A stretch of 64,000 nt of DNA from Chloroflexota bacterium (GTDB lineage: Bacteria; Chloroflexota; UBA6077; JACCZL01), in assembly GCA_020845495.1 (NCBI GenBank), contig JADLFM010000166.1, positions 124,001 through 188,000 on the forward strand, given 5' to 3'. The position numbers were made by a program, and so were the translations under genes. Shown one piece after another: positions 24,721-26,858 of the stretch (the stretch's first letter is position 1; each line of letters opens with the position of its first letter). Under the pieces are notes generated by a model. That model was not told where the DNA came from and searched no databases. It saw only the letters and a program-made list of their open reading frames with translations.

Positions 24721-26469
24721 ATGGACAGGACGCTCTCGCCCGAGACGCTGGCGGCTCAGGCCGAGTACAGTGCCGAGTCACGCGTGCGCGGGCTGGTCCC
24801 GCCGATCCATCCGTCGACCGCCTACGAGAGCGATCCCGACGGCGTCTACCCGGCGAACCGGGTCTACACGCGGGCCGACAATCCCACCTACGAAACCGCC
24901 GAGCGCTTGCTCGCCGCGCTGGAGGGGGGCGCGGCGTGCGCCCTGTTCGCCTCGGGTAACGCCGCGGCGACGGCTGTCTTCCAATCGCTGCTGCCGGGCG
25001 ATCACGTCCTGGTGGCGCGGGTGCTGTACTGGGGTATCCGTAAGTGGCTGGCGGAGTTCGCGGTCACCTGGGGACTCGAGGTCGAGTTCGTGGACACGAC
25101 CGATCCGATCCAGGTGCGCCAGACTCTTCGGCCCGGCCACACACGCCTGCTCTGGCTCGAGACTCCGGCCAATCCGACCTGGGAGGTCACCGACCTGCGC
25201 GCCGTTATCGAGATCGCCCACGCCGCGAACGTGCATGTGGCGGTCGACAACACGGTGCCGACCCCGGTCCTGACGCGTCCTTTTGAGTTTGGCGCCGATC
25301 TGGTAGTCCATTCGGCCACCAAGTACTTGAACGGCCACAGCGACGTGCTGGCCGGCGCCGTGGTCACAGCGCAGGCGGATCCACTCTGGGAGCGGATTCG
25401 CTCCTGGCGGCGAAACGCCGGTGCCGTGCCCGGTCCCTTTGAAGCCTGGCTGTTACAGCGCGGGATGCGGACGCTCTTCGTGCGGGTCCGTCGCTCGTCC
25501 GAGTCTGCTCTGGCTGTGGCGCAGCACTTCGAGCGCCATCCGGCGCTCCAAACGGTGCTTTACCCGGGCCTCCCGTCCCATCCGGGATACGAGATCGCGG
25601 CCCGTCAGATGGCCGGCGGGTTCGGGGGGATGCTCTCGATTCGGGTGAAGGGCGGGGAGGCTCAGGCGCGGGCCGTACTCGCCGCCGTCAACGTGTTCAA
25701 GCGCACGACCTCGCTTGGCGGCGTCGAGAGCCTGATCGAGCATCGACGTACTTCTGAGGGACCATCGTCGCCCGTCCCTGACGACCTCTTGCGCCTGTCG
25801 ATTGGCCTGGAGGCTCCCGATGACCTGATCGCCGATCTTGAAGTGGCGTTGGAGGGCCTGCCCCAGGTTCATCCTCCCGACACGTCGGCGCCTGCATACA
25901 CGAGCACCTCAACAGTGCCGCCCACACATGACCTCGCGGTGGCCGTCAAGGCCGTCCTCGAACGCAGCCTCGGGCCGCTCGCGATCGCTCGGGGAGGCGA
26001 GCTCCGCCTCGTGGGCGTGCACGATGGCGTCGTGACACTCGAAGCGTGCGGCTCCCCCGGTGCGTTGCGTCCGCTCATGGCCCAGATCGAAGCGCTCGTG
26101 CGCCGAGATGTGCCCGAGATTCTAGGGATCCGGTTCGTCGAACCTGACGTTGTGCCTCTCAGCGCGTCGGAGCCGGCCGGTGGTCAAGGCGCCCTCGAGC
26201 TGGTCGAGCAGGTCCGTCGTGCGATCGACGAGGATGTGAATCCGGCCGTCGCGCATCATCGCGGGCGGGTCGAACTGGTCGACGTCGTTGACCGCATGGT
26301 CCATGTCCGTCTCGAGGGCGGGTGCCAGGGTTGTAGCCTGGCCGCGGTGACGGTGTGGCAGGGCATCGAGCCGGTGCTGCGAGAGCGGGTGCCCGAGATA
26401 CTCGGCGTGGTCGACGTTACCGACCACCAGGCCGGCCGCGATCCCTTTTACGCGCCATCGAAACGCTGA
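24721..26469 (+). CDS. Cystathionine gamma-synthase/lyase-type PLP enzyme fused to two NifU-like domains
   Basis: A 582-residue fusion. Residues 1 to about 385 are a complete Cys/Met-metabolism PLP enzyme: VYTRADNPTYE phosphate site, ETPANPTWEV, Lys201 in VHSATKYLNGHSDVLAG, TSLGGVESLIEHR, and RLSIGLEAPDDL. About 405-475 is a NifU-C-like domain that has lost the metal-binding CxxC (EACGSPGAL, single C443). About 493-565 is an intact NifU-C domain with C535 and C538 in GGCQGCSLAAVT and VPEILGVVDV. Known Nfu domains carry Fe-S clusters; known CGS/CGL enzymes handle cystathionine, cysteine or homocysteine. A combined sulfur-mobilising and cluster-assembly role is inference. The ATG has GAGGGG upstream. 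A small Cys-rich protein gene is convergent. Confidence 0.88.
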   Translation: MDRTLSPETLAAQAEYSAESRVRGLVPPIHPSTAYESDPDGVYPANRVYTRADNPTYETAERLLAALEGGAACALFASGNAAATAVFQSLLPGDHVLVARVLYWGIRKWLAEFAVTWGLEVEFVDTTDPIQVRQTLRPGHTRLLWLETPANPTWEVTDLRAVIEIAHAANVHVAVDNTVPTPVLTRPFEFGADLVVHSATKYLNGHSDVLAGAVVTAQADPLWERIRSWRRNAGAVPGPFEAWLLQRGMRTLFVRVRRSSESALAVAQHFERHPALQTVLYPGLPSHPGYEIAARQMAGGFGGMLSIRVKGGEAQARAVLAAVNVFKRTTSLGGVESLIEHRRTSEGPSSPVPDDLLRLSIGLEAPDDLIADLEVALEGLPQVHPPDTSAPAYTSTSTVPPTHDLAVAVKAVLERSLGPLAIARGGELRLVGVHDGVVTLEACGSPGALRPLMAQIEALVRRDVPEILGIRFVEPDVVPLSASEPAGGQGALELVEQVRRAIDEDVNPAVAHHRGRVELVDVVDRMVHVRLEGGCQGCSLAAVTVWQGIEPVLRERVPEILGVVDVTDHQAGRDPFYAPSKR

Positions 26470-26591: not shown

Positions 26592-26858
26592 TCAGGCGCC
26601 GTCGAGCTCGGGGAGCGGGACCGGCTCGCCGCGTGGGGTGCAGACGCCGCAGTGCAGCGCGTCCTCGACCACGATCGCCCGCATGTCCTCGCTCGGGCGT
26701 GCCCGGTAGACGCCGACGATGTACGGCCGGATCTGAGCGTGCTCGCGGCAGGCACCTCGTCCGCAGAAGCGGCAGGCGCCGAGCGCGGTCTTCTCGCAGG
26801 TCCAACAGTCCACGCGGCGTACCTCGTGCCCGATCAAGCGGCGGCAGTCGTAGGGCAA
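26592..26858 (-). CDS. Small Cys-rich zinc-ribbon-like protein
   Basis: An 88-residue protein, or 73 residues if it starts at the GTG at 26813. It has CWTCEKTALGACRFCGRGACREH, two CxxC-type pairs followed by Cys and His, and a further CGVC near the C-terminus. This pattern suggests two structural zinc sites or a cross-brace, as in short treble-clef or B-box-like proteins. The TTG at 26858 lacks a ribosome binding site. GTG 26813 has GAGGT about 8 nt upstream but would drop one early Cys. No family was recognised. It is convergent with the PLP/NifU fusion, and a metal-handling partner role is possible but unproven. Confidence 0.6.
   Translation of the reverse strand: MPYDCRRLIGHEVRRVDCWTCEKTALGACRFCGRGACREHAQIRPYIVGVYRARPSEDMRAIVVEDALHCGVCTPRGEPVPLPELDGA

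Follow-up and report, generated by a model that had tools for sequence, protein, structure and literature searches.

In the window, by which we mean the whole 64,000-nt stretch of DNA analysed, the plus strand carries a single unbroken open reading frame that runs from an ATG at position 24721 to a stop codon ending at 26469 and encodes a protein of 582 aa. Pfam assigned Cys_Met_Meta_PP to residues 8-378 of this protein (2.9e-111) and NifU to two stretches downstream (8.2e-24), and together with the alignments described below this gave the following layout:

24721..26469, + strand: fusion gene, PLP enzyme followed by a degenerate and an intact Nfu domain (ORF, Pfam, homologue search)
24742..25854, + strand: PLP domain Cys_Met_Meta_PP, residues 8-378 (Pfam, conserved residues)
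25321-25323, + strand: codon of Lys201, within the PLP domain
25855..25932, + strand: variable linker, residues ~379-404 (gappy alignment region, span counts)
25933..26148, + strand: degenerate Nfu domain, residues ~405-476, with a GSPGA loop (444-448) replacing CxxC (Pfam, model, hhalign, conservation)
26212..26412, + strand: intact Nfu domain, residues 498-564, with C535xxC538 (Pfam, conservation)
26413..26466, + strand: conserved C-terminal tail of the VDVTDHxxGxxPFFxPxKR type, common to NfuA-like proteins (alignment)

The window gene stands alone, as no sulfur or Fe-S assembly operon was found among the genes scanned around it. Upstream, on the opposite strand, lie glmU-like and CorC-like genes and a tRNA-Gln, the last being the only match of an Rfam scan of the upstream region, which returned no riboswitch; a promoter and terminator scan gave one promoter-like site upstream on the minus strand and no terminator. 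Downstream, a small minus-strand ORF is followed by genes for RodZ-like, RimO/MiaB-like radical-SAM, RecA (recognized by eye) and RecX proteins. The small ORF is convergent with the fusion gene:

26592-26858, - strand: 88-aa cysteine-rich ORF, zinc-finger-like C5HCH match at 20.8 bits (cut-off 26.3)

The sequence-only reading of this DNA had described a PLP enzyme, a degenerate Nfu domain and an intact one joined in one chain, an architecture borne out by the ORF, Pfam, hhalign and a predicted structure of the tandem. Taken alone, the second domain (residues 493-582) matched NifU (PF01106) at 1.5e-20 (73.5 bits), and the first (residues 385-492) at 6.3e-4 with 20.3 bits, below the 27-bit cut-off; compared with each other by hhalign, the two domain profiles aligned with a probability of 96.1 (E 3.1e-9). 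The tandem model comprises two alpha-beta-beta-alpha-beta units, and its top Foldseek match was 2z51 (E 3.8e-10), with a poor superposition (rmsd 11.5). We rejected the possibility that the C-terminal part is not NifU-like on the combined evidence of Pfam, Foldseek, hhalign and the tandem model. Structure prediction for the full-length 582-aa protein, at a pLDDT of 61.6, was too weak for use.

Searching with residues 385-582 returned 172 proteins at E <= 0.001, with subject length limited to 0.55-1.75 times the full length; separate Nfu proteins are absent from this set because the length filter excluded them. Both Pfam families occurred in every one of the best 120 of these 172 matches (the window protein and 119 others), a count that concerns the fused form only. 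A search with the PLP part scored 8000 candidates, and NifU was missing in 30 of the best 120. For the residue counts below, we took the 139 proteins of at least 540 aa as fused (window protein included) and 25 proteins of 385-410 aa as split, setting aside 24/188 proteins as truncated or of odd length. The domain search that had been suggested for the same architecture elsewhere thus yielded 139 long proteins, the window protein among them; members of this family were already present in the database, labelled generically (PLP-dependent transferase, for example).

An architecture this odd could also have arisen by a frameshift or an assembly error that fused two genes, and a related copy in the genome bin G299 does contain an in-frame stop, which may represent an error or decay:

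L118:5165-6895, - strand: fusion copy of G299, with one in-frame TGA (neighbours: sigma factor, MFS transporter)

However, the identical join recurs in all 139 long proteins, and it is the linker that varies (22-31 residues between residues 378 and 405 in 137/139 fused rows) while the domains are conserved. We therefore rejected a frameshift joining two separate genes and consider an artefact virtually impossible.

The same pairing exists as two adjacent genes. In one genome bin, a 6.8-kb contig (L117, holding locus L082) carries a 395-aa PLP gene ahead of a 174-aa tandem-Nfu gene; the PLP stop codon is directly followed by GAGGAG, and the Nfu ATG lies 15 nt past the stop, in the same frame. 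A further gene follows, possibly a third operon member, at this one locus only:

L117:3396-4646, - strand: ATP-grasp protein with an L-amino acid ligase C-terminal domain, its longest ORF starting 36 nt past the split tandem-Nfu gene

Sequence comparison indirectly indicates a second lineage with adjacent PLP and Nfu genes, as the N-terminal extension of P0275, read in the +1 frame, corresponds over 17 residues to the end of the P0141 gene, stop codon included (200 tail shuffles: maximum 11, mean 5.5; best other PLP tail: 10). For the long extensions of P0234 and P0287, no PLP tail compared matched beyond 9. Longest-contig sizes are equal within the pairs P0141/P0275 (5487), P0142/P0225 and P0158/P0227, to which we attach little weight: as a sign of adjacency this measure is weak, since the 1586 bases common to P0149 and P0218 could not hold both genes, and sizes coincide for P0003/P0214 and P0101/P0246 as well. 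A split-type PLP protein, P0139, and a fused one, P0165, also have the same longest-contig size (12742), which may reflect one locus with both paralogues or chance.

Using the Nfu gene of L117 as query, we obtained 4285 matches, of which the best 120 are separate tandem-Nfu proteins of 172-197 aa. These share the sequence hallmarks of the fused tandem: C535 and C538 (CxxC) are present in 139/139 long fused proteins and the GGCxGC motif in 120/120 of these separate ones, while the GSPGA loop of domain 1 is unchanged in 138/139 fused sequences (one A-to-S change) and in 119/120 separate ones. A loop so nearly invariant weakens the earlier suggestion that domain 1 had become a spacer.

A tree built from 49 fused sequences (a thinned set), 26 split ones and 10 outgroups placed 24/26 split rows in one clade (SH-aLRT 99) nested among the fused rows; the two outside it, P0132 and P0149, both stop within the linker and are possibly truncated. 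Because the split clade nests among fused forms, fission of an older fusion appears likelier than repeated fusion. This direction is only probable, since 34/82 inner branches of this quick tree are open and the outgroup branches are long.

The PLP domain has the PF01053 profile together with the Lys, Asp, Tyr-x-Arg and carboxylate Arg of that family. Lys201, proposed earlier as the active site, is present in 139/139 long fused proteins, as are R358, Y49, R51, S198 and G79 of the cofactor site; D176 is kept in 138/139 rows and T200 in 137/139, with Ser in the remaining two. The claim that all substrate and cofactor motifs are intact accordingly holds for the cofactor and fails for the positions that hold cystathionine. 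We located the latter by the motifs YxR, YGGTxR and AESLGG, with human CGL itself outside the alignment, as the equivalents of what we take to be E59, R119 and E339 in the human numbering. In human CGL, these three are among the residues that grip the far end of cystathionine (available part of PMC6073527). Canonical comparison rows (n = 39) have E in 35, R in 39 and E in 39 at the respective positions, whereas in the 139 fused rows the first (residue 48) is A in 91, V in 37, T in 5, I in 3 and S in 2, one row's residue not being given; the second (residue 108) is K in 117, R in 17, Q in 3 and T in 2; and the third (residue 330) is T in 123, V in 15 and P in 1. The canonical HPxxMTH loop is likewise replaced, reading HRRSxEGPxSPVP in the fusion clade.

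Because the cystathionine-holding positions are replaced, the PLP domain is, judged by its residues, a divergent clade and not a canonical CGS/CGL; the earlier label of a CGS/CGL-type enzyme stands for PF01053 family membership, and canonical specificity is contradicted by V or A, K and T at residues 48, 108 and 330. Among NCBIfam models, no equivalog of the 25 listed (the best 25 of 47) scored over its cut-off, the top one reaching 367.8 against 513 bits, and the family matched includes transferases and a racemase model. The best solved relatives by sequence, 8sf4 and 3qhx, are named CGL/CGS, and the class-V aminotransferase profile (PF00266) scored 18.2 bits on the fusion protein, under its cut-off of 21.5.

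Human CGL releases more H2S from cysteine when E339 is replaced by a hydrophobic residue (available part of PMC6073527), and by analogy the changes seen here may point to a C-S lyase acting on a sulfur amino acid. W104, R107 and R230/R231 could suggest an unrelated substrate: W104, R107 and R231 are invariant in 164/164 Nfu-linked rows, occur in 22/40, 26/40 and 5/40 unlinked rows of the same clade, respectively, and in 0/39 canonical rows. The two arginines in particular would suit a PLP enzyme that acts on a non-sulfur amino acid, with the Nfu module protecting or maturing a pathway partner such as the ATP-grasp ligase encoded directly downstream in L117. That neighbour, however, was seen at one locus, with none among the scanned neighbours in the window or in L118, and we regard this explanation as improbable. 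The neighbours at 41 loci of unlinked same-clade PLP homologues were uninformative (ABC ATPase 9/41, SDR 5, GST 4; PLP gene and reverse-frame shadows excluded).

The window protein has four cysteines (C73, C443, C535 and C538), and 67/139 fused proteins have three in total. C443, earlier regarded as what is left of a CxxC, is no such remnant and is Cys in just 8/139 fused rows. C73, by comparison, is Cys in 131/139 fused and 25/25 split rows (156/164 Nfu-linked), as against 1/40 unlinked same-clade rows and 0/39 canonical rows (1/79), which marks it as a pairing-specific cysteine and a lead, although the pattern may stem from common descent rather than function. It presumably begins the strand leading into the phosphate loop and could lie 15 A or more away from PLP. 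No conserved cysteine was found in a known persulfide-accepting loop in the fusion family.

Within the genomes sampled, the spread of the unit is patchy. We sampled 400 genomes of one phylum (that of a Chloroflexi locus); 60 of them had a match to residues 385-582 at E <= 1e-15, and both Nfu domains were covered in 2 only (G299 and G066). In the classes of these two, the self-match alone was found at 1e-30 (1/110 and 1/7 genomes). The RecA of the window is 87 and 86% identical to those of two genomes of the Chloroflexi phylum, and in the class nearest by RecA, 7/29 genomes matched at 1e-10 through the second Nfu domain only; it is because 0/29 genomes of this class carry both domains that we call the spread patchy. 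The phylum of L060 gave 0/296 genomes at 1e-28 in a search without a positive control, and 5 of the 9 genomes behind other loci matched, the whole tandem being covered in none. Names among the protein matches listed include Methylomirabilota, Rokubacteria, Dehalococcoidia and Entotheonella. Viral contigs gave no match, and 25 plasmid records matched partially, 80% of residues 385-582 being covered in none (best 15 of 25 listed). A scan of genome contigs found at least 80 loci that match the PLP part and reach at most 34 residues past residue 378, and Nfu profiles had 0 matches to the ORFs of 80 such loci (L001-L080).

According to the sequence-only reading, the protein would act outside the usual IscS/SufS route. 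Each of the two bins found to carry the unit, G066 and G299, nevertheless has 2 matches to SufB/SufD and a SufS above cut-off (576 bits in G066, 552 in G299), with the proviso that in genome bins contigs as small as L117 and L118 could be wrongly assigned. NifU matches in G299 comprise the fusion only, and in G066 one besides the split gene. Because SufB/SufD and SufS are found in both, the PLP-Nfu unit probably does not replace SUF.

The presence of SUF would equally suit a sensor, in which the Nfu module, through a labile cluster, signals Fe-S or oxygen status and modulates how a PLP enzyme works or assembles, the reaction of that enzyme being unrelated to cluster building. A fusion could serve regulation as well as supply, and the PLP reaction needs no Nfu, as the clade also exists without it (the 40 unlinked rows and the 80 loci lacking an Nfu match). 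Nfu domains are, however, described as cluster carriers in the available part of PMC8593673, and the listings and partial literature examined contained no Nfu regulatory domain, which leaves a sensor quite unlikely. By analogy with that carrier family (PMC8593673), the C535/C538 domain would bind a cluster.

Compared with known systems, the fusion shares with the CGS/CGL family (PF01053) the profile and the PLP-binding residues, and differs in the replaced E59, R119 and E339 equivalents, the HRRSxEGPxSPVP loop and the added Nfu module. As in NfuA, a C-terminal CxxC Nfu domain and tail stand behind a degenerate carrier domain, but that domain is A-type in NfuA and an Nfu copy here (Pfam found no A-type domain in the fusion protein), a PLP enzyme stands in front, and the NfuA model TIGR03341 scored 81.7 bits on residues 385-582 against a cut-off of 269.35, matching positions 105-190 only. 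Plastid NFU/CnfU (2z51) resembles it in being a tandem with one cysteine-less copy. The degenerate copy comes second in plant NFU (available part of PMC8825329) and first in the fusion, which alone has a PLP domain. With IscS/SufS and IscU/SufU, the fusion may share the role of coupling a PLP enzyme to an Fe-S protein, whereas its PLP enzyme is of another family than their class V and its Nfu is a carrier rather than a U-type scaffold.

The NfuA-like C-terminal domain and tail raise the alternative that the Nfu module delivers clusters specifically to an Fe-S client such as a radical-SAM or lipoyl-type enzyme, with the PLP domain mainly targeting or oligomerizing the module; PLP enzymes of the CGS-like family are usually tetramers. 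NfuA offers a precedent, as its N-terminal degenerate domain is a targeting domain for apo-proteins (available part of PMC8593673). Against such a passive PLP domain, the conservation of K201, D176 and R358 noted above argues for a working enzyme, and we consider dedicated client maturation unlikely. The same NfuA domain (PMC8593673), together with plastid NFU, suggests by analogy a role for domain 1, although a 2021 paper described what the plastid degenerate domain does as unclear (available part of PMC8825329).

The reading we favor, at a probability of roughly 0.38, is that a PLP C-S lyase feeds its own Nfu carrier in an accessory or repair route beside SUF. The PLP domain would take cysteine, cystine or homocysteine, all small sulfur amino acids, as its substrate and free sulfide or persulfide next to the Nfu module, which would hold or repair a cluster and pass it to apo-proteins, with the cysteine-less Nfu domain fixing docking or dimer geometry. 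A stronger form, in which a CGL-like lyase passes sulfur freed from any of these three amino acids, possibly through a C73 relay, to the attached Nfu as a sulfur-to-cluster unit of a non-IscS/SufS type, with the cysteine-less twin holding geometry, we consider rather doubtful. The link to Fe-S chemistry proposed earlier is strengthened by the conserved fusion and its two-gene version, and the conserved joint suggests, at the level of sequence, that the breakdown of sulfur amino acids may be tied directly to the delivery of Fe-S clusters.

Class-V cysteine desulfurases are held to supply the sulfur of Fe-S clusters. The conserved association of Nfu with a CGS-like PLP enzyme, covalent or operonic, makes it possible to test for a second sulfur route, or for a turnover of sulfur amino acids that is directly coupled to the repair of clusters, and the fusion family constitutes a bacterial counterpart to plastid tandem NFU. 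We know of no biochemistry of a PLP-Nfu fusion. The individual domains are known; the open-access literature, with most subscription journals outside its scope, yielded no description of the conserved PLP-Nfu pairing in this order.

Among NfuA-like proteins of other loci (L097 and L111-L114), some repeat the PYYxPxKG-type C-terminal tail peptide two or more times; in these proteins the front part looks HesB/IscA-like by eye and is followed by NifU.
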